A DNA stretch of 64,000 nucleotides from Pseudonocardia sulfidoxydans NBRC 16205 (GTDB taxonomy: Bacteria; Actinomycetota; Actinomycetes; Mycobacteriales; Pseudonocardiaceae). The position numbers were made by a program, and so were the translations under genes. The stretch spans positions 1 through 64,000 of the forward strand of contig NZ_BJVJ01000018.1 of NCBI RefSeq assembly GCF_007989085.1. The letters are read 5' to 3'. Below, piece after piece: positions 1,904 to 17,651 of the stretch. The number at the start of each line of letters is the position of its first letter. Position 1 is the first letter of the stretch. The notes beneath the pieces were generated by a model. The model was not told the origin of the DNA and ran no database searches. It was given only the letters and a program-made list of their open reading frames with translations.

Positions 1904-4183
1904 GTGTTGGTCCGACTGATCATCGGTCTGGTGATCACCGTCGCCGCCGTCGCGATCGCCGGCCGCCGCGCGATGCAGGTCTACAAGCTCGTCGAGTCGG
2001 GCCAGCCCGACGACGCCCGCCGCGACGGGCTCGGCGCGCGGGTGCGGGCCCAGTTCGTCGAGGTGTTCGGTCAGCGGAAGCTGCTGAAGTGGTCCGTCCC
2101 GGGCCTGGCGCACTTCTTCACGTTCTGGGCCTTCGTCATCCTGGCGACGGTCTACCTCGAGGCGTACGGCGCGCTGTTCGACCACGACTTCCACATCCCG
2201 TGGGTCGGCCGGTGGGCGGTCCTGGGCTTCCTGCAGGACACGATCGCGGTGCTGTGCCTGCTCTCGTTGGGTGTCTTCGCGGTCATCCGCTTGCGCAACG
2301 CACCGGCCCGTGAGGCGCGCGCGTCGCGGTTCTACGGCAGCCACACCGGCGGGGCGTGGCTGATCCTTTTCATGATCTTCAACGTCCTGTGGACGCTGTT
2401 CTTGTTCCGCGCCGCGTCGTCGGCGCTGGGGGTGTTCCCGTACAAGTCGGGTGCGTGGGCGTCGATCGGCCTCGGCCACCTGTTCGAGGGGATGCCGCAG
2501 GGGGCGCTGGAGGTCGTCGAGACGGTCGGCCTGCTGCTGCACATCGGCGTCATGCTGGTGTTCCTGGTGATCGTCGCCTACAGCAAGCACCTGCACATCT
2601 TCACGGCGCCGATCAACGTCTCGGCCAAGCGCATGCCCAAGGCGCTGGGCCCGCTGCTGCCGATGATGTCGGACGGCAAGAAGATCGACTTCGAGGATCC
2701 CGACGAGGACGCGATCTTCGGTCGCGGCAAGATCGAGGACTTCACGTGGAAGGGCATGCTCGACTTCGCGACCTGCACCGAGTGCGGTCGTTGCCAGAGC
2801 CAGTGCCCGGCGTGGAACACGGGCAAGCCGCTGTCGCCGAAGCTCGTGATCATGGACCTTCGCGACCACCTGTTCGCGAAGGCGCCCTACATCATCGGCG
2901 GCCAGGAGCTGCCCGAGGTCGAGTCGGTCGACTTCGACGTCCTGGAGGCCGCGACCAACGGGCACGGCCACGGCGTCCCGGAGTCGGGCTTCGGCCGCGT
3001 GCCGGGTTCGAACCCGCAGCAGGCGGCGCGCCCGCTCGTCGGCACCGCGGAGCAGTTCGGCGTCATCGACCCCGACGTCCTGTGGTCCTGCACCTCGTGC
3101 GGTGCGTGCGTCGAGCAGTGCCCCGTCGACATCGAGCACGTCGACCACATCATCGACATGCGTCGCCACCAGGTCATGATCGAGTCGGAGTTCCCGTCCG
3201 AGCTGGGTGTGCTGTTCAAGAACCTGGAGAACAAGGGCAACCCCTGGGGTCAGAACGCCAAGGACCGCCTGGAGTGGACGAAGGGCCTCGACTTCGAGGT
3301 CCCGGTGTTCGACGGTGAGCTGTCGGCCGAGACCGAGTACCTGTTCTGGGTCGGCTGCGCGGGCGCGTTCGACGACAACCAGAAGAAGACGATCCGGGCG
3401 ACGGCGGAGCTGCTGCACCGCGCGGGCGTCGGCTACACGGTGCTCGGCCCGGAGGAGTCCTGCACGGGCGACCCGGCCCGGCGGTCCGGCAACGAGTTCC
3501 TGTTCCAGATGCTCGCGATGCAGAACGTCGAGGTGCTCAACGCGGTGTTCGAGGGCCGCGAGCCCGGCACCCGCAAGATCGTGACGACGTGCCCGCACTG
3601 CCTCAACACCCTGGGCCGGGAGTACCCGCAGCTCGACGGGCACTACGAGGTCGTGCACCACACGCAGCTGCTGAACAAGCTGGTGCGCGAGGGCAAGCTG
3701 GTCCCGGTCGCGGAGCCGGCCGCCGACAAGGCCGCGCCGGTCACCTACCACGACCCCTGCTACCTGGGCCGGCACAACGAGGTCTACGCCGAGCCGCGTG
3801 AGCTCGTCGCGGCCGCGGGGGCGACGCTCACCGAGATGCCGCGTCACGGCGACCGCTCGATGTGCTGTGGTGCGGGCGGTGCGCGGATGTGGATGGAGGA
3901 GCGGATCGGTCAGCGCGTCAACGTCACGCGCACGACCGAGGCGCTCGACACCCTGTCGGGCGTGGGTGGCGACGGCGGCACGATCGCCGTCGGCTGTCCC
4001 TTCTGCAAGACGATGCTGTCGGACGGCCTGACCGAGAAGCAGGCCGAGGGTGGCGGCGCGGGCGTCCAGATCCAGGACGTGTCGCAGATGCTGCTCGCGG
4101 CGGTCAAGCGTGGCGACCCGGCCACCAACGGGGCTGCCGTGGCCGGCGCGACGGCGGACACGACGGAGGACGCCACCTCCTGA
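1904..4183 (+). CDS. etfD: EtfD-type membrane Fe-S oxidoreductase (electron-transfer flavoprotein:quinone route)
   Basis: This 759-residue protein looks like M. tuberculosis Rv0338c/EtfD, which passes electrons from the beta-oxidation flavoprotein ETF to menaquinone at the membrane. The N-terminal ~270 residues hold several membrane helices of a NarI/cytochrome-b-like domain. Two 4Fe-4S motifs follow: CTECGRCQSQCP and CTSCGACVEQCP. Then come two CCG cysteine-rich domains with the pairs CPHC, CCGAGG and CPFC, as in HdrD/GlpC proteins. I start at GTG 1904 because GAGGAGG lies just upstream; TTG 1907 would give better spacing and nearly the same protein. No etfBA is in the window. The operator-like repeat at 1773 suggests control by a fatty-acid-responsive repressor, which is inference. 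Confidence 0.88.
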   Translation: MLVRLIIGLVITVAAVAIAGRRAMQVYKLVESGQPDDARRDGLGARVRAQFVEVFGQRKLLKWSVPGLAHFFTFWAFVILATVYLEAYGALFDHDFHIPWVGRWAVLGFLQDTIAVLCLLSLGVFAVIRLRNAPAREARASRFYGSHTGGAWLILFMIFNVLWTLFLFRAASSALGVFPYKSGAWASIGLGHLFEGMPQGALEVVETVGLLLHIGVMLVFLVIVAYSKHLHIFTAPINVSAKRMPKALGPLLPMMSDGKKIDFEDPDEDAIFGRGKIEDFTWKGMLDFATCTECGRCQSQCPAWNTGKPLSPKLVIMDLRDHLFAKAPYIIGGQELPEVESVDFDVLEAATNGHGHGVPESGFGRVPGSNPQQAARPLVGTAEQFGVIDPDVLWSCTSCGACVEQCPVDIEHVDHIIDMRRHQVMIESEFPSELGVLFKNLENKGNPWGQNAKDRLEWTKGLDFEVPVFDGELSAETEYLFWVGCAGAFDDNQKKTIRATAELLHRAGVGYTVLGPEESCTGDPARRSGNEFLFQMLAMQNVEVLNAVFEGREPGTRKIVTTCPHCLNTLGREYPQLDGHYEVVHHTQLLNKLVREGKLVPVAEPAADKAAPVTYHDPCYLGRHNEVYAEPRELVAAAGATLTEMPRHGDRSMCCGAGGARMWMEERIGQRVNVTRTTEALDTLSGVGGDGGTIAVGCPFCKTMLSDGLTEKQAEGGGAGVQIQDVSQMLLAAVKRGDPATNGAAVAGATADTTEDATS

Positions 4184-4521: not shown

Positions 4522-4791
4522 ATGAGCGCCACCACGGAAGGGGTGACCTTCTGGGTTGCGCAGGTGTCGACGGGAGGTCTGCAGGGCTGGATCCAGAACA
4601 ACATCGTTCCGCTCATCCTGCTCGGCATCGCGATCATCCTGCTGTGGATCGGCGGGCGCGGTGACAATGCCGGCGTCGCGCGGCGCAGTATCGGTCTGAT
4701 CGTCGGCCTGGTGGCCCTCGGCATCGCGGTGTCCGGCACCGGCCCCGCCGTGGGGTCGTTCCTGGCGTCGCTGATCACCGACGCCAGGTGA
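4522..4791 (+). CDS. Small two-helix membrane protein, VirB2/pilin-sized, first gene of type IV-like locus
   Basis: This 89-residue protein has two hydrophobic helices (about residues 27-43 and 57-74) joined by a short charged loop (GGRGDNAGVARR). That size and topology fit VirB2/TrbC-type pilin subunits of type IV secretion systems. Sequence alone does not prove the family, so the call rests mostly on position: it is the first gene of a compact run that continues with a VirB3-like protein and a VirB4-like ATPase. A strong GGGGAGGGG site precedes ATG 4522. No clear signal peptide cleavage site is visible. Confidence 0.6.
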   Translation: MSATTEGVTFWVAQVSTGGLQGWIQNNIVPLILLGIAIILLWIGGRGDNAGVARRSIGLIVGLVALGIAVSGTGPAVGSFLASLITDAR

Positions 4792-4795
4792 CGGG

Positions 4796-5320
4796 GTGCT
4801 CGTCCGCACTGACGACGAGGTGTACCGCGTCGACGCCGTGTGGCTCGGTCCGCCGCGGGCCACGTTCCCGTGGCGTGCGCGCTATGTGAGCTATGGTCTC
4901 GGGCTCGCCGTGATGGTCGTGATCATGTTCGTCCAGCGTCGGCTGGGCATCTCGTTGGACTTCTTCTCGGTGGCCTGGTCGTTGCTGTTGACGATCGTGA
5001 TCACCCGGTTCCTGGGCAAGCGGATCAACTACGACCGGCCGTTGGGCCAGATCGTGGCGTTGTTCCGGCACGAGGTCACCGGGCCCCGGCCGGCGACGGC
5101 GACGCGGGGCGGGCCGGTGCGCGCGGGCCGGGTGCGGGTGCACAGCTCGTTGCCGCGGTCGAAGCGCCAGGCCGTCGCGATGACGAAAACGCCGGCGCAG
5201 GTGCGGAAGGCCACGCCGCGTAAGCAGGTCCTGGCGGCCCGGACGCCGCAGGCGCGCACGGTCGCGGACCATGTCAACGGCAGTCGGAGAGTGAACGGGA
5301 GCCGCGGTGGCCCGGCGTAA
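4796..5320 (+). CDS. VirB3/PrgI-like inner-membrane protein
   Basis: The 174-residue protein has two close membrane helices near residues 30-75 (SYGLGLAVMVVIMFVQRR and a second one at SVAWSLLLTIVITRFLG). The following motif, GKRINYDRPLGQI, resembles the segment after the helices of PrgI/VirB3-type proteins that always sit before a VirB4 ATPase. The C-terminal ~90 residues are basic and look disordered. GTG 4796 lies 4 bp after the preceding stop, and the gene overlaps the ATPase gene by 14 bp, which points to translational coupling. It probably anchors the ATPase at the membrane. Confidence 0.65.
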   Translation: MLVRTDDEVYRVDAVWLGPPRATFPWRARYVSYGLGLAVMVVIMFVQRRLGISLDFFSVAWSLLLTIVITRFLGKRINYDRPLGQIVALFRHEVTGPRPATATRGGPVRAGRVRVHSSLPRSKRQAVAMTKTPAQVRKATPRKQVLAARTPQARTVADHVNGSRRVNGSRGGPA

Positions 5321-8315
5321 GCGTGCCGACGACGCGCGTGACCGCGACTCCCGCGCCACGTCCTCGCCGAAGCGCCGGCGCGGCCGGTCGCTGGCGGGCG
5401 AGCTCAAGTCCGACGGTTTCACCCCCGACATCGCGCTGCGGTCGATCGACGGGCACCTGACGCGCACGGGCACGCAGGTCATGGCCTGGTACCGGTTGGC
5501 GGCGCAGGCGTGGAGTTTCCGCAGCGACGTCCAGCGCGAGATCCTGATCCGGCAGATCGCGGCGCAGCTGGGTGAGCTGCAGGGGCGGTGGCTGCACCTA
5601 CGGGTGACGACGCGGCCGTATCCCGTCCACATGTGGGCGGAGTCGTTCGACCACAACGCGTTGGGGCGCATGCCCGACGTCGCGGGTGCGCTGGGCTGGG
5701 ACGGGTTCCTGGAGGGCGAGCAGCGCCACCTCATGGGCCTGTCGATGAGCGACAAGGAAGTCTTCCTCGGCATCGAGGTGTCGGGGCGCGGCATGCTCGA
5801 CCGTTGGGCCGACATCGCCGCTCCTGTCCTCGACCGGTTCCTGCCGGCCGCGGCGCGTGCGGAGCTGGCCGCGCTGGAGTCGGAGGTCAACCACCTCGAC
5901 GTGCTGGTGTCCGGGGCGGGGCTCGACGCGGTGCCCGCGACCGCGGAGGACATCGCGTGGCTCATGCACCGTTCGGTCGCGCTCGGGCTGCCGGCACCGC
6001 GGACGCTCGCGGCGGTGCCGGAGGGCACGGGCCGTTGGGAGACAGAGGATCTCGCGGCGTTCACCGATGGTGTCTCGATCCTGCAGGAGCCGTACGCGCC
6101 CACGGTGCAGGTGATTGGCCGGCTGCGGTCGCAGACGGTGCAGCGCAACGTCGCGGTGCTGTCGCTGGGGCTGATGGAGGGGCTGCGCATCCCGGAGGTC
6201 GACGACCCGTGGATGCAGCATTCCGACCGGTTGCCGTTCCCCGTCGAGTGGTCGGCGCGCATGTACATCCGTCGTCCCGAGGACGTGACGGGTGAGCTGC
6301 AGCGCCAGATGGGCAAGGTGCGCAGCCAGATCCGGCACTACACCCACGATCACGACCTCGAGCCGCCGATGTCGCTGGCGCGGCAGGCCGACCGGGTCCT
6401 GGAGGTGGAGGACGAGGTCACCAGCGGTCTCACCCAGCTGAACACGCGGCTGTACGGGTGGTGGCGCGTCGCGGTCGCGGGTCGCGACGAGGCCGAGGCG
6501 GTCCAACGCGCGCAACAGGTCCTGGAGATCTACCGGCCGAAGGTGCAGATCGAGCACCCGGAGGCGCAGTACCGGTACGCGCGGGAGTTCGTGCCGGGCG
6601 AACCGTTGGCGTCGACGGCCTACCGGCGTCGCGGGTCGGTGACGTGGGCAGCCGCGGCGGTCCCGGCGGCGACGGCGAGCGTGGGCGACCGGCGCGGCAT
6701 CATGATCGGCGAGACCTGCACGGCCACCCGGCGTCCGGTGGCGTGGGACCCGTGGCTGGCGCAGGAGGTGCGGCGGGCCTCGGGCCTGACGGCGATCGTC
6801 GGCGGTCTGGGGTCCGGGAAGTCGTTCCTGACGGGCCTGGTCGTCTACAAGACGTTGCGGGCGGGGGCGCGGTGGACGGTGCTCGACCCGTCGGGTCCGC
6901 TGGCGGAGCTGACGCGGCTCCCGGAGCTGGCGCCGTTCTCCCGCCACATCAACCTGCTGCGCGCCGACCCGGGCATCCTCAACCCGTACCGGGTCGTCGC
7001 GGAGCCGCGGTTCGAGCACTTCGCCGACGACGAGGATCCCGAGCGGGCGTGGCGTCGTGAGAAGTCGCTGGCGGCGGCCACCCGGCGGCGGCTGGTGCTC
7101 GACGTCCTCACCGGACTGCTGCCCTTCGACGTGGCGCGTATGCCGCACACCAGGATCGTGCTGCTGCGCGCGGTCCGGGAGGTGGGCGGTGCCCCCGACC
7201 GGCACCCCGGACTGGTCATCGACGCGCTGCGCCGGCACGCCCGCGAGGGCGAGGACCACGCCGGGGTGGTCGCCGACTTCCTGGAGGAACGTCGTGAGCT
7301 GCCGCAGGCGGCGCTGCTGTTCCCCGACACCTCCCGCGAGGACCCGTGGGCCGTCGACCAGGACTTCCGGCTCACCGTCCTCACCATGCAGGGGATGACG
7401 CTGCCCCGGCCGGGCAGCCCCCGCGAGGAGTGGACGGACTCGGAGTCGCTGGCCGTCGAGCTGCTCAACCTGGCGTCGTGGCTGACGCAGCGCACGATCT
7501 ACGACGCCGACCGCAACATGCGCAAGGGCGTAGCCCTCGACGAGACGCACTTCCTGTCGCAGGTGCCCACCGGCAAGGTCCTCATCGACCGGCTCGCCCG
7601 TGACTCCCGCAAGTTCAACGTCCGGGCCCTGTTCGCCTCCCAGCTCGCGGGCGACCTGCTGCGGGTGTCCGGGTTCGCGTCGCTGGTCAACGCCGTGTTC
7701 GTCGGCCGCACCGACGACGAGGAGGCCCAGACCGACGCGCTGCGGCTGCTGCGGGTGCCCACGGGCGTCGGCTACGAGGAGATGCTGGGGACGCTGTCGC
7801 CGCGGCCGCGCCACGACGACCGCCCCGACGACACACCGCGCCAGTTCGTGTTCGCCGACGGGCACGGTGGCGTCGAGAAGATTCGCATCGACCTGGAAGC
7901 GCCGCACCTCGAGCACGTCCGCGAGGCGCTCGACACCAACCCCGACGCCAGCCGCATCGCCGTGTCCGGCGCGCCCGTCGAGGTCCGGCCGCTGGAGGTC
8001 CGCGCCCCCGACGAGCCCGCCGACCGCAGGCCCCCGCAGCGGCTCCCGCCGGGCCGGCTCGACCTCGACGGCGACGACATCGACCCCGAGGAGCTCGGTG
8101 CGCTACGCAACGGGCAGCGCGTCGTCCTGGGCCCGGTCGGGACCGACGACGTCGTCACCGAACGCGGCATGATCGTCTCCGAGGACACCGACCTGCTCGC
8201 CGACGAGGACCTCGACCTGCTCGACGATCTCGACCTCGACGACGGCTACGTGCCCGAGGAGCCGGTGCACGGCGGAGGGTCAGGGGTCGGGGCCTCGCGC
8301 GAGGCGGGGCGGTGA
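5307..8315 (+). CDS. VirB4-like type IV secretion ATPase
   Basis: The 1002-residue protein has a basic N-terminus, then a long domain resembling the VirB4/TraC N-terminal half. An AAA/HerA-type motor domain follows. Walker A is GGLGSGKS near residue 500 and the Walker B region is VALDETHFLS near residue 742. In VirB4 proteins this ATPase powers assembly of the envelope-spanning channel and substrate movement. The C-terminal ~130 residues are acidic and proline-rich (DLLADEDLDLLDDLDLDDG), an unusual tail that might recruit partners. GTG 5307 overlaps the previous gene and the stop overlaps the next start. No VirD4 coupling protein or relaxase is seen nearby. Confidence 0.82.
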   Translation: MARRKRADDARDRDSRATSSPKRRRGRSLAGELKSDGFTPDIALRSIDGHLTRTGTQVMAWYRLAAQAWSFRSDVQREILIRQIAAQLGELQGRWLHLRVTTRPYPVHMWAESFDHNALGRMPDVAGALGWDGFLEGEQRHLMGLSMSDKEVFLGIEVSGRGMLDRWADIAAPVLDRFLPAAARAELAALESEVNHLDVLVSGAGLDAVPATAEDIAWLMHRSVALGLPAPRTLAAVPEGTGRWETEDLAAFTDGVSILQEPYAPTVQVIGRLRSQTVQRNVAVLSLGLMEGLRIPEVDDPWMQHSDRLPFPVEWSARMYIRRPEDVTGELQRQMGKVRSQIRHYTHDHDLEPPMSLARQADRVLEVEDEVTSGLTQLNTRLYGWWRVAVAGRDEAEAVQRAQQVLEIYRPKVQIEHPEAQYRYAREFVPGEPLASTAYRRRGSVTWAAAAVPAATASVGDRRGIMIGETCTATRRPVAWDPWLAQEVRRASGLTAIVGGLGSGKSFLTGLVVYKTLRAGARWTVLDPSGPLAELTRLPELAPFSRHINLLRADPGILNPYRVVAEPRFEHFADDEDPERAWRREKSLAAATRRRLVLDVLTGLLPFDVARMPHTRIVLLRAVREVGGAPDRHPGLVIDALRRHAREGEDHAGVVADFLEERRELPQAALLFPDTSREDPWAVDQDFRLTVLTMQGMTLPRPGSPREEWTDSESLAVELLNLASWLTQRTIYDADRNMRKGVALDETHFLSQVPTGKVLIDRLARDSRKFNVRALFASQLAGDLLRVSGFASLVNAVFVGRTDDEEAQTDALRLLRVPTGVGYEEMLGTLSPRPRHDDRPDDTPRQFVFADGHGGVEKIRIDLEAPHLEHVREALDTNPDASRIAVSGAPVEVRPLEVRAPDEPADRRPPQRLPPGRLDLDGDDIDPEELGALRNGQRVVLGPVGTDDVVTERGMIVSEDTDLLADEDLDLLDDLDLDDGYVPEEPVHGGGSGVGASREAGR

Positions 8316-10306
8316 CCCCGCCGGACGGACTCGCGGGTACCGGGCCGTGGGTGGTGGTGTTCGTCGTGCTCGCGGCGATCGTGGCCGCGCACCGCCGGCG
8401 GGTCCGGGCCCGGCGCACCGCGGTGCTCGACGTCGGCGACGCGTCGACGTTCCTGCCCGACCCGCAGGTCGACGGGGTGCGCCCGCCGCGGACCGTCCGC
8501 ACGTCGGCGCTGCTGGTCGTCGTCGCGATCATGGCCGGGACGTCGCTGATCGGGACGCCGGCGATCGCGCAGTCGCTCGACTGCAAGGAGGCGCCGGAGC
8601 CCGACCGGCCCGGCACCGGCCTCGTCGGTTCGCTCGACGCCCTGCGCCCCGACGCGGGCGAGCCCGGCAGCGTGTACCGCGAGGTCGGCTACGCGGGCAT
8701 GGTGTGGCACAACTACGACCTCGGCTGCGCGGGCCAGGCCGTGCTCAACCCGTCGACGACCACCGACACGTGGCTCGGCAACCAGACGTTCAACATCGCG
8801 AAGCTGACCGTCGCCGGGGTGAACTGGGCGCACTACCTGATCGCGACCGGCGGGGCGCTGCTCACGCCGCTCGACGACATCATCACCACCGCGACGAAGG
8901 CCATGTACGACGCGGTCTTCACGACGTTCGTCGGCATCGCCCTGCTGATCCTCGCCGTCGTCCTGATCGTCCTCGCGATGCGCGGCGACCTGGCCAGACA
9001 GGCGCAACGCGCCGGGTTCGCGGCGCTGGCCCTGCTCATCGGGTCCGCGGCCTACCTGGCACCGGTCGACTGGTCGAAGGCCGCCGACGGTCTCCTGCTC
9101 GACGGCGTCACGCAGATGCAGGAGGGCTTCCTCTCCCAGATCGGCCTCGGCAACCGCGACACCCTGCCGACGGTGCTCGTCGACCAGGTCATCTACCGCA
9201 ACTGGGAGCGCGGCGAGTTCGGCTCCCCCGACGTGCCGCAGGCCCAGCAGTTCGGCCGCGACCTGCTGCGCGCCCAGACGTTCACCATCGACGAGGTCCT
9301 CGACGGCAAGGACACCGGGGCGCTCGCGCAGGAGAAGAAGAACCAGTTCACGACGATCGCCGGCCAGCTGGGCGACCGCTACACCTACTTCCAGGGCAAG
9401 TCGGGCAGCCGGATCGGGACCGGGCTGCTGGCCGTCGTGCAGGCGTTGTGCATCGCGCTGTTCCAGCTGCTGTCCAAGGTGCTGGTCCTGGTCGCGATGC
9501 TGCTGCTGCGGCTGATGGTGATGTGCGCGCCCGCCATCGCGGTGCTCGCGATCCTCAAACCCGACCTGCTGCCCGCGCTGCTGCGGGTGGCGGGCGCGGC
9601 GATCGTCAACACGCTCATCGTCGGCGCGCTCGCCGGGCTGCACGCGCTGCTCGTCGTGTCGCTGTTCCGGCCCGACTCCGGCATCGACCTGTGGCTCGCG
9701 CTGCTGGTCACCGGCGTCGTGACCGTCGTGATGTGGGCTGTTGCGCGGCCGTTCCGACGGCTCGTGTCGATGGTGTCGCTGACCCGCGAACAGTTCGGCG
9801 GGATCGTGCCCGGCGTCGGTGCCGGGCCCATGTCGGGGGTGTGGCGGCGGTTCCGCGGCGGCCCGGTCGACGACCGGCAGGCCCGCTGGTGGACCGACCG
9901 GCAGGCGAGCGGGACGGGCGGCGACCCCGACGGCGGCCGTCCCGAGACCGTCATGGCCACCGCGACCGTCGTCGGTGGCGCGTCGGCGGCCCGCCAGCCC
10001 CGGCGGCGCAGCGAGGTCACCCCGGGCGGCGCGGCCGCGATCGGGGCGTCCGGCCGGCGCGCCCTGCCCGCCGGCGCGGGCGGGGCCCCGGCCCGCACCA
10101 ACGGCGTCCCCGGCCGCTCCGACCCCGGCGAGGTCGACGAACGCGTCATCTACCGACGACCCGACGCCACCCCGCCGCGGCCCCGGACCCCGGCACTCGA
10201 CCCCGAGGTCGTCGACGGCGTCTCGGTGTACCGCATCTATCGGCCGGCGCGCACCGGCACCCGGACCCCCACGCGCACCGCGTACCGCCGGACCGAGGAC
10301 CGCTGA
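8312..10306 (+). CDS. VirB6/TrbL-like polytopic membrane protein
   Basis: This 664-residue protein has a helix near the N-terminus, a second helix followed by an AxA-like site (GTPAIAQ near residue 85), and an extracellular segment with Cys residues. A cluster of helices follows at about 190-250 and again at about 370-485 (for example VLVLVAMLLLRLMVMCAPAIA). The last ~180 residues are a cytoplasmic tail rich in Arg, Pro and Gly. This plan, with a polytopic core encoded right after a VirB4-like ATPase, fits the VirB6/TrbL channel component. Start GTG 8312 overlaps the ATPase stop (GTGA). Confidence 0.65.
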   Translation: MTPPDGLAGTGPWVVVFVVLAAIVAAHRRRVRARRTAVLDVGDASTFLPDPQVDGVRPPRTVRTSALLVVVAIMAGTSLIGTPAIAQSLDCKEAPEPDRPGTGLVGSLDALRPDAGEPGSVYREVGYAGMVWHNYDLGCAGQAVLNPSTTTDTWLGNQTFNIAKLTVAGVNWAHYLIATGGALLTPLDDIITTATKAMYDAVFTTFVGIALLILAVVLIVLAMRGDLARQAQRAGFAALALLIGSAAYLAPVDWSKAADGLLLDGVTQMQEGFLSQIGLGNRDTLPTVLVDQVIYRNWERGEFGSPDVPQAQQFGRDLLRAQTFTIDEVLDGKDTGALAQEKKNQFTTIAGQLGDRYTYFQGKSGSRIGTGLLAVVQALCIALFQLLSKVLVLVAMLLLRLMVMCAPAIAVLAILKPDLLPALLRVAGAAIVNTLIVGALAGLHALLVVSLFRPDSGIDLWLALLVTGVVTVVMWAVARPFRRLVSMVSLTREQFGGIVPGVGAGPMSGVWRRFRGGPVDDRQARWWTDRQASGTGGDPDGGRPETVMATATVVGGASAARQPRRRSEVTPGGAAAIGASGRRALPAGAGGAPARTNGVPGRSDPGEVDERVIYRRPDATPPRPRTPALDPEVVDGVSVYRIYRPARTGTRTPTRTAYRRTEDR

Positions 10307-10309
10307 CCC

Positions 10310-10897
10310 GTGCCGATCCGATCCCCCCGCGGTCGCGCCGCCGCCTACCGCTCGTTGTGGCAGTGGCCGCTGCACTCGCCGCTGCGCCTGGTCGGGACGG
10401 TCGTCGTCGTCCTGGTGCTCGCCGCGGGGGTCAGCTGGGCCGCGACCTCGGGCCGCAGCTCCGCCCCGTCGGCCCCGGGCCAGAACACCTCCGGCCCATC
10501 CACATCGGACGGCAGGCCCGCCACCGCCGGGTCGCCGTCGGTGCTGCCCCCCGTCGTGCCGCTGAACCCCACGACGTTGCCGCTCACGGCCGCCCCGCAA
10601 GCGGCACTGGCGGCCGCCTCGTCGTGGGCGTCGGCATGGGTCGACCACCCCGCCGGCACCACCACCGAGCAATGGCTCGCCCGGCTGCGCCCCTGGACCA
10701 CCGACGAGTACCTCGGCGTCCTCGGCTCCGTCGACCCCGGCAACGTGCCCGCGAGCACGGTCACCGGCCCACCCGAGGCCACCCGCGTGTCCCCCGCGTC
10801 CGTGCAGGTGAAGGTCCCGACCGACACGATCACGCTGATCCTGCTCGTCGTCGACGACGGGTCCGGCTGGCGGGTCGCCGACTCCGACGAGGGCTGA
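10310..10897 (+). CDS. VirB8/TcpC-like single-pass secretion protein
   Basis: The 195-residue protein has a short basic cytoplasmic start, one membrane helix (residues ~27-46), a Ser/Pro/Thr-rich linker, and an external domain of about 110 residues. That domain (AAASSWASAWVDHP at its start, LILLVVDDGSGWRVADSDEG at its end) looks like the NTF2-like fold of VirB8/TcpC/TraM proteins, which scaffold Gram-positive conjugation channels. The closing pattern of a valine-rich strand and W-R-V is typical of such domains. It lies 3 bp after the VirB6-like gene and 7 bp before the wall hydrolase gene. Confidence 0.65.
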   Translation: MPIRSPRGRAAAYRSLWQWPLHSPLRLVGTVVVVLVLAAGVSWAATSGRSSAPSAPGQNTSGPSTSDGRPATAGSPSVLPPVVPLNPTTLPLTAAPQAALAAASSWASAWVDHPAGTTTEQWLARLRPWTTDEYLGVLGSVDPGNVPASTVTGPPEATRVSPASVQVKVPTDTITLILLVVDDGSGWRVADSDEG

Positions 10898-10904
10898 TCC
10901 CGCC

Positions 10905-11921
10905 GTGGTCACCCCACTGCGGCCGTTGCGGCTGCTCGTCCCCGTCGTCGCGATCGCGGCCGCCCTCGCGCTGTTCATGGGCGTCGGCTTCATCGCGTTC
11001 ACGATCGGCGGCGGGGGCGGCGCCACGACGTCGTCGAGCGGGGTGTGCGACACCGGCGTCGGCGTCTCCGACGGTGCCGGCCGCTCCGGCTCCACCTTCG
11101 CCGACCTGTCCGACGAGCAGCGCAGCAACGCCCAGACCATCATCGCCGTCGCCCGTGACATGGGCGCCCCGCCGCGGGCCTGGCTCGTCGCCCTCGCGAC
11201 CGCCATGCAGGAATCCACCCTGCGCAACATCAACTACGGCGACCGCGACTCCCTCGGCCTCTTCCAGCAACGCCCCTCGCAGGGCTGGGGCACACCCGCG
11301 CAGGTCACCGACCCCGTCTACAGCACGCGCATCTTCATCGACCGGCTGCTGAAGGTCCCCGGATGGGAGTCCCTGCCCGTCACCGTCGCCGCGCAGACCG
11401 TGCAACGCTCCGCGTTCCCCAACGCCTACGCCAAGTGGGAGGGCCTCGCCGCCGCGCTCGTCGGGCAGCTCGCCGACGTCTCCGTCCTCCCCGCCCGCTG
11501 CACCACCCAGACCGCGACCCTCCCCGCCGGCGCGGCCGGAACGGCGATCGGGTTCGCGCTCAAGGAAGTCGGCAAGCCCTACGTGTGGGGCGCGACCGGC
11601 CCCAACACCTACGACTGCTCCGGGCTCATGCTGCGCGCCTTCCAGGCCGCCGGCATCGAGCTGCCCCGCGTCTCCCGCGACCAGTACCGGGCCGGCGGCC
11701 ACGTCCTCGTCCGGGAAGCGCAGCCCGGCGACCTGCTGTTCTACGCGACCGACCCCAGCGACCCCTCGACCATCCACCACGTCGTGCTCTACATGGGCGA
11801 CGACAAGATGGTCGAGGCCCCCTACACCGGCGCCTCCGTCCGCGTGCAGCCCGTCCCGTGGAACTACCGCGAGCTCGTCCCCTTCGCGACCCGCCCCGGC
11901 ACCACCCGCAACGATGCGTGA
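10905..11921 (+). CDS. Two-domain cell-wall hydrolase (lysozyme-like + NlpC/P60), VirB1-like
   Basis: The 338-residue protein has an N-terminal membrane anchor (about residues 10-32). A transglycosylase-like region follows (AMQESTLRNINYGDRDSLGLFQQRPSQ is its core, residues ~103-130; the E in MQES is the likely acid). A C-terminal NlpC/P60 endopeptidase domain has the catalytic Cys in YDCSG at residue 238 and His in HHVVLYMG at about 291-292. Such enzymes open peptidoglycan locally for type IV secretion channels of Gram-positive bacteria. The domain order matches TcpG/VirB1-like proteins of conjugative elements. GTG 10905 is 7 bp after the previous stop. Confidence 0.85.
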   Translation: MVTPLRPLRLLVPVVAIAAALALFMGVGFIAFTIGGGGGATTSSSGVCDTGVGVSDGAGRSGSTFADLSDEQRSNAQTIIAVARDMGAPPRAWLVALATAMQESTLRNINYGDRDSLGLFQQRPSQGWGTPAQVTDPVYSTRIFIDRLLKVPGWESLPVTVAAQTVQRSAFPNAYAKWEGLAAALVGQLADVSVLPARCTTQTATLPAGAAGTAIGFALKEVGKPYVWGATGPNTYDCSGLMLRAFQAAGIELPRVSRDQYRAGGHVLVREAQPGDLLFYATDPSDPSTIHHVVLYMGDDKMVEAPYTGASVRVQPVPWNYRELVPFATRPGTTRNDA

Positions 11922-12030
11922 CCGACGTTTCGCGCGCCCCACGGGCCGCGTCGGGGCCGCCGTGGAAACATCGGGTGCACGGCACGCCGCGAGGCGGGCC
12001 ACCGGCAGGGCACGACCGGAAGCAGGCTCG

Positions 12031-12462
12031 ATGGCACGCGACGAACCCCACAGCCCGGCGTCGACGACGCCGCTGCGCGACTACCTCGACCGGCCGGCGC
12101 GCGGCGCGAGCGAGGACTACCTCGTGGTGCCCCGCTCGCTGGCCCAGTCGATGCCCCTGCGCTGGCAGCAGGTGTTCACCGGGCTGCTCGCCGACCTGCA
12201 CGACGCCTACGGCGACCTCGAATGGCCCGAGTACCGCGTCGCGCCCTGCCGCTACGAGGCCCTCACCGACCTCGACGAGGACCAGCTCGCCCTCGCCGGA
12301 TACCTCGCCGACCTCGGCCCCGACGGCGAGCTCGTCTACCGCGACGCCGAGGACGGCGTCGTCGACGACCCCGAGAGCCACCGCGTGCTCGCGCCGATCG
12401 CCGACCCGCTGCCGCCGCCGTCGGCAGGCCGGGTGGAGCCACGCGCCGCCCGCAAACTCTGA
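12031..12462 (+). CDS. Small acidic soluble protein, last gene of type IV-like locus
   Basis: I do not recognise a family. The 143-residue protein has no membrane helix or signal peptide. It is acidic in its second half (DLDEDQLALAGYLADLGPDG) and carries a tryptophan-rich middle (PLRWQQVFTGLLADLHDAYG). I chose ATG 12031 because CGGAAGCAGG precedes it and the upstream frame overlaps the hydrolase gene with no conserved look. It follows the wall hydrolase by 109 bp on the same strand and meets the EspG-like gene tail to tail. Because it closes the locus it may be a cytoplasmic partner of the ATPase, which is inference only. Confidence 0.6.
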   Translation: MARDEPHSPASTTPLRDYLDRPARGASEDYLVVPRSLAQSMPLRWQQVFTGLLADLHDAYGDLEWPEYRVAPCRYEALTDLDEDQLALAGYLADLGPDGELVYRDAEDGVVDDPESHRVLAPIADPLPPPSAGRVEPRAARKL

Positions 12463-12472
12463 GACCTCCCGA

Positions 12473-13234
12473 TCAGGCCGCCGCGATCAGCTCGTCGATC
12501 CGGCGGACCAGCCCCGCCCCGTCCACCGGCGCCACCGTGACGACGTCACGCCCGTCCCCCGCCGGCCTGCGCAGCCGGACCACGTGCCCCGACGACGTGC
12601 GGTGCAGCCCGATCAGCCACGGCGCCCGCCGCCTGCCCACGCACACCCCGACCATGCCGTGCCGGTCGACATCGCGGTGCATCGCGACGTACGTCGCCGC
12701 ATCGCCCGCCTCGACACCACGGCGGACCAGCTCGTCGACCAGCGCTCCCGGGTCGTCGCCCGCCGCACCGACCGACGACTCGACGTCGCCCGCCCGCACG
12801 TTGACCGTGCGTCCGCGGGCCGCCGACACCGGCCCGACCACCTCCACGACCGCCCGCGACAGCCGCGTCGGCGCCACGTCGGCCAGCGCGATCTCACCGT
12901 CGTGACGCACCGCCAGCACCGCACGGCCGCGGTACCGGGCCGCCACCGCGCTGACGACGGTCGTCCCGTGGATGCGCACGTCCACCGACAGCTCCCGACG
13001 GTCCAGCACCGTCAGCGCCGCCGCCAGCCGCGGTACCGGCCTGCGGTCGTCGACCAGCCCGCGCGCCGCCAACGCCGCCAACGCCCCGTCGACGACTTCC
13101 CGACGCTCCTCCCACGTCCGCCCGTGCCGCGGCGGGTCGAGCTCCCACGGCGTCTCGTCGAACCGCGCCGCCTCCCACGCCACCTCGAACTCCGTCAGCG
13201 ACAGCACGGTCGCCGCGTCCCAGTCGACGGTCAT
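12473..13234 (-). CDS. EspG-like type VII secretion chaperone
   Basis: The 253-residue protein matches the EspG family pattern. The N-terminus LSLTEFEVAWEAARFDETPWEL is followed by a region where basic and Val-rich strands alternate (GRAVLAVRHDGEIALADV), and the protein ends with a helical C-terminus (LVRRIDELIAAA). EspG proteins bind PPE-type substrates in the cytosol and keep them ready for ESX export. Its start overlaps the stop of the PPE-like gene by 4 bp (ATGA), so the two are co-translated and are probably chaperone and cargo. No ESX core gene (EccB, C, D or E) lies in the window. Confidence 0.82.
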   Translation of the reverse strand: MTVDWDAATVLSLTEFEVAWEAARFDETPWELDPPRHGRTWEERREVVDGALAALAARGLVDDRRPVPRLAAALTVLDRRELSVDVRIHGTTVVSAVAARYRGRAVLAVRHDGEIALADVAPTRLSRAVVEVVGPVSAARGRTVNVRAGDVESSVGAAGDDPGALVDELVRRGVEAGDAATYVAMHRDVDRHGMVGVCVGRRRAPWLIGLHRTSSGHVVRLRRPAGDGRDVVTVAPVDGAGLVRRIDELIAAA

Positions 13235-14547
13235 CGACACTCCTCCCCGCCGATCACCGGCGCGACGTGCGGGGTGTCGACGTCGAACGGTGCCGAGCTG
13301 GGCACCAGGTAGCGCGGGGTGTGCCGGTCGTTCCCGCCGCGGCTCCCCGCGGCGCCGGCCATCGGCGGGTACATGCCGCCGGGCAGCCCGCTCCCGCCCG
13401 GACGACCCGCCGCGGTCACCGGCCGGAGGGCGTCCCGGGCGCCCCCCGGGGTGCGCGACGTCGGCTCCGCGACGCCCTGCCCGCCGCCGGCGCGCAGCAG
13501 CTTGTCGGCGAACCCCCGCCCGGTCGACGTGTCCGCACCGCGGGACCAGCCCGGCGTCGGGACGGTGGACCTGCCCGGGGCGGGGACGGTGGATCGGCCT
13601 GGGGTGGGGACGGTGGATCGGCCCGGGGTGGGGACGGTGGGTCGGCCCGGGGTGGGGACCACGGGCAGGTCCGGCCGGATCGGGCCGGGTGGCGGACCGG
13701 GGACCCGGGGTGGTGGCGGAACGTTCGGGACCTTCGCCGGTGAGGTGCGGTCGACACGCGTCCCGCCCGTGACGCCCGGCGGAAGCACGCCGGGATCGAC
13801 ATGACGGGCAGGGCTCTCGGGCAGCCCGGGGACCGCGCCGGGCGGCCGCGGCACGGCGAGGTCGCCGACAGAACCCACCGGCGGCGTCCCGACAGCGCTG
13901 CCCGTCCCACCGGCGCCGACCCCGCCCCCGAAGCCCCCGCCTCCCCCGTCTCCACCGGTCTGCGCGCCGGCCGGAGGCGCATTCCCGGCGACCGGGAAGC
14001 GGTCGAGCGCCTGCCGTGAGGTGTCCTCGTGCACGTACAACGCGGCGTTGGCCTTCGCGTCGATCGTCCGGACCTGCTCGACCGCCTCGCGGTGGTCGGC
14101 CTCCGCAGCCATCAGCGCGAACGGGCCGCCGATCGGGCCGAGGAGCACGAACGGCGCACCCGCGGGCAACGACATCGCCCGCCGCACATCCATGGCGACC
14201 AGATCGCGGCCCGACCCCCCGACGTGGCGGCTCATCTCCCCGAACGACATCCCGTACCCGTCGACCGACGCCCCCGCCGCGCGGCCGGCATCGGAGTGCG
14301 CCTCCGCGCGGGCGGCCGAGGCGGTCACCGCGGCCCCGGCCTCGGAGGCGGCGCGGCCCTGCCACGCGACGCCCAGCGGCTCGAGCTGTCGTCGCAGCTC
14401 CTGGTCGGAGTCGGCGAACTTCCCGCCGAGGTTCGTCATCCCCTGGTGGAGGGTCGCGATCGCGGAACTGCCGGGCCCCTCGCCGAGCCACTTCAGCTTC
14501 TCGGCGAGGGGGAAGCCCTCGTACCGGTGGTAGTTGATCCCGAGCAT
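13231..14547 (-). CDS. PPE/WXG-like type VII secretion substrate with repeat-rich tail
   Basis: The 438-residue protein has an N-terminal helical domain of about 180 residues with a W-x-G turn (GVAWQGRAASEA near residue 65), the shape of WXG100/PPE proteins. It is followed by a Gly/Pro-rich tail that includes about five copies of an eight-residue VPTPGRST unit. It is paired with an EspG-like gene and lies downstream of a DUF3558 lipoprotein gene, a common Pseudonocardiaceae arrangement for ESX-associated loci. ATG 14547 is preceded by about 440 bp of repeats. It lacks an adjacent PE-like partner. The final residues (DTPHVAPVIGGEECR) show no known toxin domain. Confidence 0.75.
   Translation of the reverse strand: MLGINYHRYEGFPLAEKLKWLGEGPGSSAIATLHQGMTNLGGKFADSDQELRRQLEPLGVAWQGRAASEAGAAVTASAARAEAHSDAGRAAGASVDGYGMSFGEMSRHVGGSGRDLVAMDVRRAMSLPAGAPFVLLGPIGGPFALMAAEADHREAVEQVRTIDAKANAALYVHEDTSRQALDRFPVAGNAPPAGAQTGGDGGGGGFGGGVGAGGTGSAVGTPPVGSVGDLAVPRPPGAVPGLPESPARHVDPGVLPPGVTGGTRVDRTSPAKVPNVPPPPRVPGPPPGPIRPDLPVVPTPGRPTVPTPGRSTVPTPGRSTVPAPGRSTVPTPGWSRGADTSTGRGFADKLLRAGGGQGVAEPTSRTPGGARDALRPVTAAGRPGGSGLPGGMYPPMAGAAGSRGGNDRHTPRYLVPSSAPFDVDTPHVAPVIGGEECR
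13551..13665 (-). repeat. 24-bp in-frame tandem repeat (VPTPGRST)
   Basis: About five copies of a 24-bp unit (core GGGGACGGTGGATCGGCC on the + strand) encode eight-residue VPTPGRST repeats in the tail of the PPE-like protein. The copies are nearly identical at DNA level, which suggests recent expansion. Confidence 0.75.
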
Positions 14548-15794: not shown

Positions 15795-17651
15795 ATGGCT
15801 CGTGCGGTCGGTATCGACCTCGGAACCACCAACTCCGTCGTCGCCGTCCTCGAGGGTGGCGAGCCGACGGTCATCGCGAACTCCGAGGGTTCGCGCACCA
15901 CGCCCTCGGTCGTCGCGTTCGCGCGCAACGGCGAGGTGCTCGTCGGACAGTCGGCGAAGAACCAGGCGGTCACCAACGTCGACCGCACGATCCGCTCGGT
16001 CAAGCGTCACGTCGGGTCGACCTGGTCCACCGAGGACATCGACGGCAAGAAGTACTCCGCCCAGGAGATCAGCGCCCGCGTGCTGCAGAAGCTCAAGCGC
16101 GACGCGGAGGCGTACCTGGGTGAGGAGATCACCGACGCGGTGATCACCGTCCCCGCCTACTTCGAGGACGCGCAGCGCCAGGCCACCAAGGAGGCCGGCC
16201 AGATCGCGGGTCTCAACGTGCTGCGCATCGTCAACGAGCCCACCGCGGCCGCCCTGGCCTACGGCCTCGACAAGGGCGACAAGGAGCAGACCATCCTGGT
16301 CTTCGACCTCGGTGGTGGCACGTTCGACGTCTCGCTGCTGGAGATCGGTGAGGGCGTCGTCGAGGTCAAGGCGACCAACGGCGACAACCACCTCGGTGGC
16401 GACGACTGGGACGAGCGCGTCATCAGCTGGCTCGTCGACAAGTTCAAGACGGCGCAGGGCATCGACCTGACGAAGGACAAGATGGCGATGCAGCGGCTGC
16501 GTGAGGCCGCGGAGAAGGCGAAGATCGAGCTGTCCAGCTCGTCGAGCGCCACCATCAACCTGCCGTACATCACCGTCGACGCGGACAAGAACCCGCTGTT
16601 CCTCGACGAGACGCTGTCGCGCGCCGAGTTCCAGAAGATCACCTCGGACCTGCTCGACCGCACCCGCGCCCCGTTCAACCAGGTCGTGAAGGACGCCGGC
16701 ATCTCCGTCGGCCAGATCGACCACGTCGTGCTCGTCGGTGGCTCCACCCGGATGCCCGCCGTCACCGAGCTCGTCAAGGAGCTGACCGGCGGCAAGGAGC
16801 CCAACAAGGGTGTCAACCCGGACGAGGTCGTCGCCGTCGGCGCCGCCCTGCAGGCCGGTGTGCTGCGCGGTGAGGTCAAGGACGTCCTGCTGCTCGACGT
16901 CACCCCACTGTCCCTGGGCATCGAGACCAAGGGCGGCGTGATGACCAAGCTCATCGAGCGCAACACCACGATCCCCACCAAGCGGTCGGAGATCTTCACG
17001 ACGGCCGACGACAACCAGCCGTCCGTGCAGATCCAGGTGTTCCAGGGCGAGCGCGAGATCGCGTCGTACAACAAGAAGCTCGGCATGTTCGAGCTGACGG
17101 GTCTGCCGCCCGCCCCGCGTGGCGTGCCGCAGATCGAGGTCTCCTTCGACATCGACGCCAACGGCATCGTGAACGTCTCGGCGAAGGACCTGGGCACCGG
17201 CAAGAGCCAGGCCATGACGATCACCGGCGGGTCCGCCCTGGGCAAGGACGAGATCGACCGGATGATGCGCGAGGCCGAGCAGCACGCCGAGGACGACAAG
17301 AAGCGTCGTGAGGACGCGGAGGTCCGCAACCAGGCGGAGACGCTGGTCTACCAGACGGAGAAGTTCGTCAAGGAGAACGACGAGAAGCTGCCGTCCGAGG
17401 TGAAGGACGGCGTGAACGCCGCTCTGGGTGAGGCGCAGGAGGCGCTGAAGGGCACCGACACCGAGGCTCTCAAGGCCGCGGTGGAGAAGCTGGGCCAGGA
17501 GTCGCAGAAGATGGGTGCGGCCCTCTACCAGCAGCAGGGTGCCGATGGTGCCGCCGCGGGTGCCCCGGGTGCCGACTCGACGGCCGCCGGCGAGCAGGCC
17601 GACGACGTGGTCGACGCCGAGATCGTGGACGAGGACAAGGACAAGAAGTGA
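15795..17651 (+). CDS. dnaK: Chaperone DnaK (Hsp70)
   Basis: This is the ATP-dependent cytosolic folding chaperone that works with GrpE and DnaJ. The 618-residue protein has normal length and begins [16 protein letters not shown], the Hsp70 phosphate-binding signature. It also contains [15 protein letters not shown] and [13 protein letters not shown], the other two family signatures. It ends with an acidic tail ([12 protein letters not shown]). CGGAGG precedes ATG 15795. It heads the dnaK-grpE-dnaJ-hspR operon, and its stop overlaps grpE by 4 bp. Two HAIR sites upstream indicate repression by HspR, encoded by the last gene of the same operon, giving feedback control. Confidence 0.98.

Follow-up and report, generated by a model that had tools for sequence, protein, structure and literature searches.

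Why would a bacterial chromosome keep the parts of a mating pore, with none of the parts that nick DNA and feed it into that pore lying alongside? The question is raised by a locus of Pseudonocardia sulfidoxydans NBRC 16205, a member of the Pseudonocardiaceae, which is a family rich in antibiotic producers. The locus lies in positions 1–64000 of contig NZ_BJVJ01000018.1 (contig C18 below; this whole stretch of 64,000 nucleotides is referred to as the window), in a genome of 6.58 Mb in 209 contigs. An initial annotation, made from the sequence alone, recognised there a compact operon (4522..12462) resembling a type IV secretion system (T4SS), and suggested that it may be a domesticated chromosomal system and not a mobile element. 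The operon is real, conserved and uncharacterised, and the most plausible reading is that of a T4SS which has been domesticated and is passed on vertically. Its domestication appears to us highly probable, and to the whole statement, i.e., a host-owned monoderm T4SS derived from a plasmid-type conjugation apparatus and having a role in mycelial growth and development, we assign a rough probability of 0.55.

Organization of the operon

The span 4522..12462 holds seven collinear genes, labelled A to G (protein lengths in amino acids, aa):

4522..4791, + strand: gene A, 89 aa; a protein the size of a pilin, with a short charged loop and two hydrophobic helices, resembling VirB2/TrbC in topology only
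4796..5320, + strand: gene B, 174 aa; two helices and a basic tail; PrgI/VirB3-like by position and topology
5307..8315, + strand: gene C, 1002 aa; VirB4 ATPase carrying both Walker motifs, A (GGLGSGKS) and B (DE)
8312..10306, + strand: gene D, 664 aa; polytopic membrane protein, similar to VirB6 in its place in the operon and its topology
10310..10897, + strand: gene E, 195 aa; one transmembrane helix, a linker and a TcpC/VirB8-type NTF2-like domain
10905..11921, + strand: gene F, 338 aa; membrane-anchored lysozyme-like domain and NlpC/P60 peptidase; a VirB1-like role is presumed
12031..12462, + strand: gene G, 143 aa; acidic soluble protein

The locus is tightly packed on one strand, as initially described: genes A to F overlap or are separated by gaps of at most 7 bp, and G follows after 109 bp if its start matches that of its relatives. 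The GC content at third codon positions is of the coding type in all seven genes (0.90–0.97), and a foreign composition was rejected when the genes were compared with their surroundings (gene GC content 0.68–0.76 vs. 0.733 for the window). The gene set is more than a chance assembly, since the same gene order recurs in relatives with about 40% VirB4 identity.

Distribution and chromosomal position

Screening for presence or absence across the Pseudonocardiaceae, as had been proposed, recovered a VirB4 match in 200/200 sampled genomes, representing 46/46 genera. VirB4 matches were also found in 130/298 genomes at the order level (E ≤ 1e−3; 121 strong and 9 weak, the latter with E > 1e−10) and in 20/197 genomes at the class level (E ≤ 1e−20). 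Many of the order-level matches come from family f15, which is probably the Micromonosporaceae. In 20 order-level loci the detected genes keep the A–F order, with A, B or E falling under the BLAST threshold in several distant ones.

For comparison of named loci the best 80 of 456 confirmed stretches were kept, so this set is weighted to close relatives; the 57 of these 80 with at least 20 kb were counted as full-flank loci, and gene presence was scored by BLAST (E ≤ 1e−4). Genes A to D were detected in all of them (57/57), E in 56/57, F in 55/57 and G in 45/57, the last being seen only in the window's own family among the loci examined. Within the best 80 of 456, the VirB4 of the window shares 98% identity (best segment) with that of Pseudonocardia sp. 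SCN 73-27 and 92% with that of P. dioxanivorans CB1190. Operon genes with 87% VirB4 identity to the window also occur in a record titled Blastococcus sp. MAG (metagenome-assembled genome), which is probably a mis-binned contig.

Because the contig begins 4.5 kb upstream of the operon, its left flank was judged from relatives. Two flanking features, neither of them part of the operon, recur as its neighbours in Pseudonocardia and Actinomycetospora:

1904..4183, + strand: Fe-S-binding-type protein
15795..17651, + strand: DnaK, followed by GrpE/DnaJ-like genes

The operon occupies a few fixed chromosomal slots. In these two genera it sits between the Fe-S gene and dnaK (found at 21/57 and 20/57 full-flank loci, respectively), and in most other loci between the genes for RNase H and panB (34/57 and 23/57); elsewhere folP lies beside two f15 loci and rplT beside one f13 and one f11 locus. 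The placement between housekeeping genes noted at the outset is thus matched by conserved flanks in relatives, with the neighbours being what we take from their sequences to be the Fe-S, dnaK, GrpE/DnaJ, RNase H, panB, folP and rplT genes.

Vertical inheritance and selection

A quick maximum-likelihood analysis of 73 VirB4 proteins (LG+G4, with branch support from the Shimodaira–Hasegawa-like approximate likelihood ratio test, SH-aLRT) placed the 55 rows from the family in one clade (SH-aLRT 100), and each of the genera with at least two rows forms a single clade (11/11, with g21 and g25 weakly supported). Three plasmid VirB4s fall outside the family clade. The deep branches are long and drew a long-branch warning from the program, and their order is unsure. 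The ratio of non-synonymous to synonymous substitution rates of VirB4 was 0.12–0.23 against eight same-genus loci and 0.25–0.32 against nine loci of g42 (probably Actinomycetospora), and the ATP-binding motif (Walker A pattern [AG]xxxxGK[ST]) is kept in 72 of the 73 proteins, the exception being the plasmid locus L105. VirB4 is under purifying selection, and the operon is a maintained core gene set.

Mobility genes at the operon

The initial statement that relaxase, coupling protein and integrase are missing from the window stands for the classes covered: no VirD4 coupling protein (PF02534), TrwC relaxase (PF08751) or tyrosine integrase (PF00589) was found in positions 1–64000, in a search that did not extend to other relaxase classes, serine integrases or att repeats. 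The window also contains no tRNA gene. The 57 full loci were scanned with one relaxase, three VirD4s and two integrases as queries, so other classes could be missed. A MobF relaxase was found within ~9 kb in 0/57 (other relaxase classes were not searched) and a tyrosine integrase in 1/57, while the single VirD4 match was weak (E 4e−5) and came from a reading frame starting inside the VirB4 stretch; there is no convincing coupling-protein gene within ~9 kb in these loci.

An adjacent relaxase together with an integrase, which had been named as evidence against domestication, was looked for as well. Two near-complete genomes of the same genus do have a tyrosine integrase ~7 kb upstream, abutting tRNA-Gly(CCC). 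A third genome of the genus has the same gene order there without the integrase. This gene was rejected as a part of the locus, with several other genes standing between it and the operon; since it adjoins tRNA-Gly and the third genome keeps the order without it, the operon lies outside the integrase element.

Identity of the subunits

Profile and structure searches bore out three of the initial component assignments (C as VirB4, F as a wall enzyme and E as a TcpC/VirB8 fold), whereas A as pilin, B as VirB3 and D as VirB6 are called by topology and gene order only. Protein C is a full-length VirB4, matching Pfam AAA_10 (3.6e−25), NCBIfam TcpF (1.9e−26, under that model's own cut-off) and, by PDB profile, 4ag5 (8e−11). 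Protein F matches NlpC/P60 (1.1e−24), and its muramidase-type domain matches PDB 8b2e (3.5e−28). For E, structure prediction, one of the checks suggested for the small subunits, was run and gave a compact domain preceded by N-terminal helices and a linker of low confidence (predicted local distance difference test 83, predicted template modelling score 0.56). The closest PDB folds include TcpC 3ub1 (probability 0.99, E 6.3e−3), the VirB8 protein CagV and the VirB8 protein PrgL; the matches span E 6e−3 to 8e−2, with none at 0.001, and whole-chain TM-scores are low, so that the model makes E look like a subunit of the TcpC/VirB8 fold at modest E-values.

Hydrophobic segments number two in A, two in B and eight in D, which would fit a pilin, VirB3 and VirB6. 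Profile searches against PDB and Pfam were of no help for A, B, D or E, and weak TrbC/VirB2 matches for A appeared in 2/22 family members (best E 0.082). A VirB2-like pilin is not general in monoderm T4SSs. The second half of F varies by family, being NlpC/P60 in Pseudonocardiaceae, with the lysozyme-like half kept throughout; in the aligned f15, f13 and f11 loci and in one f5 locus F ends in GPHLHFE, presumably an M23-type motif.

Related systems

The linear Streptomyces plasmids pSM17C and 891-h, as well as Pseudonocardia sp. DSM 110487 p1, carry the same gene order with VirB4s that are 41–43% identical, gene A of pSM17C and 891-h being placed by position only. Unlike the window operon, pSM17C has VirD4 directly upstream. 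On p1 a weak VirD4 relative lies ~5 kb downstream, and 891-h has no VirD4 on the 21 kb examined, where an FtsK/SpoIIIE gene is present.

Domesticated T4SSs are known in archaea, where the Ced and Ted systems have VirB2-, VirB4- and VirB6-like parts and, in the available portion of the source, no recognised relaxase homologue (PMC9905601). The same portion describes no wall hydrolase or VirB8 for them, whereas the window operon has both types; the likeness noted is one of make-up. In Patescibacteria, according to the sections available, the T4SS is chromosomal, of the monoderm type and mostly without relaxase (PMC12102498), but differs from the window operon in having a VirD4-like component and, in the studied species, a VirB2-like pilin cluster, and in the epibiont lifestyle of its owners. 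A review of December 2025 covers VirD4-less systems and unusual Gram-positive systems, and a word search of its available text gave no mention of cmdA, Pseudonocardia or Micromonospora (PMC12857230). An earlier survey of actinobacterial integrative conjugative elements (ICEs) required, in the part available, an integrase, a coupling protein, VirB4 and a MOBF relaxase together (PMC3218068), and would for this reason not report the window locus. Concerning core T4SS genes in Pseudonocardiaceae and Micromonospora, the literature retrieved contained only a virB4 of Micromonospora lupini whose neighbours have no known function (PMC4182475, available portion), and a search that mostly did not reach subscription journals found no work on this operon.

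Comparison with cmd of Streptomyces

A chromosomal, relaxase-less T4SS-like operon with a VirB4-like ATPase has been described in S. coelicolor as cmdABCDEF (SCO4126–4131). In the available text, its deletion led to defects in branching, septation and chromosome segregation and to overproduction of actinorhodin, left the transfer of an SLP2-derived plasmid unaltered, and showed that cmd is needed for normal sporulation (PMC2782261). Like the window operon, cmd is chromosomal and combines a VirB4-family ATPase with membrane proteins, and it is conserved in several Streptomyces. We detected a cmd-matching ATPase in 14 genomes of the group f33/g119, probably Streptomyces. The loci L150–L154 are very probably the cmd locus, judged by their six genes, an SCO6880-family subunit (8.5e−54) and a 470 aa ATPase with the P-loop lysine at residue 90 as in the cmd paper.

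The two operons differ in several respects: the VirB4 of cmd is split in two (an SCO6880-family N-part and the 470 aa ATPase), the gene order is different, and there is no wall hydrolase among the six genes, where the window operon has F. One cmd protein of 520 aa gives a weak TraG-D_C match (E 0.036, below cut-off). CmdB relatives are patchy in Pseudonocardiaceae (70/150 genomes, 31/46 genera, E ≤ 1e−10), whereas the window VirB4 is present in every sampled genome. The split type, the gene order and this patchiness therefore make the window operon an analogue of cmd, and orthology, with the ATPase as the only scoring protein, was rejected. Of the characterised systems cmd is the nearest analogue, though of a different, split-VirB4 type. 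Two clusters of such a second, split-VirB4 T4SS occur in the P. sulfidoxydans genome itself (contigs C91 and C34; ATPases 86% identical), the one on C91 with VirD4 and with a gene that we take to be ParA-like.

Domestication, possible function and alternatives

The suggestion of a domesticated chromosomal system agrees with VirB4 in 200/200 genomes, the conserved flanks, the genus-wise tree, purifying selection and the MobF count of 0/57. Given the stable chromosomal positions and the lack of DNA-nicking and DNA-feeding parts alongside, the locus has the appearance of a mating machine that the cell has taken over for its own purposes. The ancestor would be a plasmid-type conjugation apparatus. 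In the present system F may open the cell wall, A, B, D and E could form a membrane-and-wall channel or a short pseudopilus, and C would power assembly or transport by ATP; as VirD4 is not inherited along with the operon, any substrate would enter directly, after Sec export, or via a coupling protein from elsewhere. By analogy with cmd, we tentatively propose that the operon serves the envelope or cell–cell contacts during mycelial growth and development, a possibility well short of even odds. Several results weigh against the overall picture. The best VirB4 match is weaker in 7/200 family genomes (E 1e−204 to 1e−293) and mostly in 2–3 pieces, and profile searches gave no convincing Pfam family for A, B or D. 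In the profile comparison of window and cmd proteins the ATPase alone scored (hhalign probability 93.5, 20% identity over 352 columns; all others at most 15), which is why a shared role with cmd is an analogy, and a WhiG-like promoter motif was found in 0/77 upstream regions.

Among the other explanations, a decaying ICE remnant would account for a gene order equal to that of plasmid transfer regions, but is contradicted by the occurrence in every sampled family genome, the few fixed slots, purifying selection and the kept ATPase motifs, so that we regard it as extremely improbable and, on the same grounds together with a tree that follows the genera, rejected a recent ICE or its remnant. Protein secretion, i.e., export of an effector or wall-acting protein with G possibly as a chaperone, would fit the report, in the available text of PMC12857230, of one Gram-positive T4SS secreting a protease, and also the properties of G, a conserved acidic protein encoded next to the operon in 45/57 full loci. 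However, G is absent or undetected in the remaining 12/57 and no candidate effector turned up (no systematic effector search was made), which leaves this function rather improbable. Uptake or exchange of DNA, as by archaeal Ced/Ted or by ComB of H. pylori, is less probable again: there is a similar minimal set of a two-helix pilin-like protein, a VirB6-like protein and VirB4 with no adjoining coupling protein (PMC9905601; for ComB PMC12857230; both in part), but this likeness is in make-up, and we have seen no reports of competence or exchange for Pseudonocardiaceae.

A host-provided mating channel, on which relaxase- and VirD4-carrying elements lacking VirB4 dock their own coupling protein, has to be weighed against the rest of the genome, to which the absence of these genes from the window does not extend. 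Five VirD4 matches and TrwC relaxase matches at five places were found, the two together at four. One such module lies on the same contig at ~82–87 kb, ~70 kb downstream of the operon and just past the window, and modules of the same kind are present on contigs C24, C95 and C111. The wider region of C18 (~76–90 kb) contains a tyrosine integrase, VirD4, a weakly DUF2637-like protein and a MobF relaxase, with no VirB4 match. A tblastn search whose queries were five ATPases of the VirB4 type and two proteins of the SCO6880 type, and which detected the control plasmid pSM17C, gave no VirB4 of either type within the 9–15 kb examined per module, the element ends being undefined, and the single AAA_10 match over cut-off in the genome is the operon's own. 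Three Pseudonocardiaceae plasmids examined whole (pA387 and those of Amycolatopsis sp. NBC_01480 and Prauserella) likewise carry a MobF relaxase and VirD4 with no VirB4 match. No report of pA387 self-transfer was found, and PMC9033027, in its available portion, cites a 2008 title naming a ‘conjugative shuttle vector’ from pA387. Because these VirB4-less modules and plasmids complement the chromosomal operon, they suggest such a channel. The inference is weakened since two Streptomyces plasmids are alike in having VirD4 and no VirB4 match (24.5 of 30.9 kb and 32.9 of 35.1 kb examined), which lowers its specificity, the probable Streptomyces group having no genome among the 20 class-level VirB4 matches, and since the two split-type clusters of the genome could serve instead. 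A close VirD4 relative also occurs in genome G212 (82% complete), where the VirB4 match is only weak, and the plasmid transfer left unchanged by cmd deletion speaks against it too, although the plasmid in question is equipped with transfer genes of its own (PMC2782261, available text). We therefore consider the host-provided channel doubtful, and slightly more so its extension to a public conjugation channel, in which chromosomes would keep the pore while many elements have shed theirs, carry only relaxase and VirD4, and plug into that of the host.

For the domesticated T4SS that we prefer, a family-wide occurrence without mobility parts means that finding VirB4 in one of these genomes is not the same as finding a conjugative element, and it offers a genetically testable case for asking what use a cell has for a mating pore of its own. 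If the role is developmental, it would parallel cmd of Streptomyces from a different T4SS lineage. If the operon serves relaxase-only elements, the prediction of gene flow in Pseudonocardiaceae changes, and if such a pore were also kept for the host's own DNA exchange, it would be a mating system owned by the bacterial cell.

Neighbouring genes

Here and in P. dioxanivorans the Fe-S gene points in the same direction as the operon, but it is divergently oriented in most of the other Pseudonocardia loci seen, which amounts to a local inversion. On the other side, an EspG-family gene (1.2e−45) adjoins the operon in the stretch 12473–14547 on the − strand, next to what is presumably a WXG/PPE-like gene. 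The espG gene stands beside the operon in 6/57 full loci, all of them from Pseudonocardia, and is therefore an ESX-related neighbour and no part of the operon.

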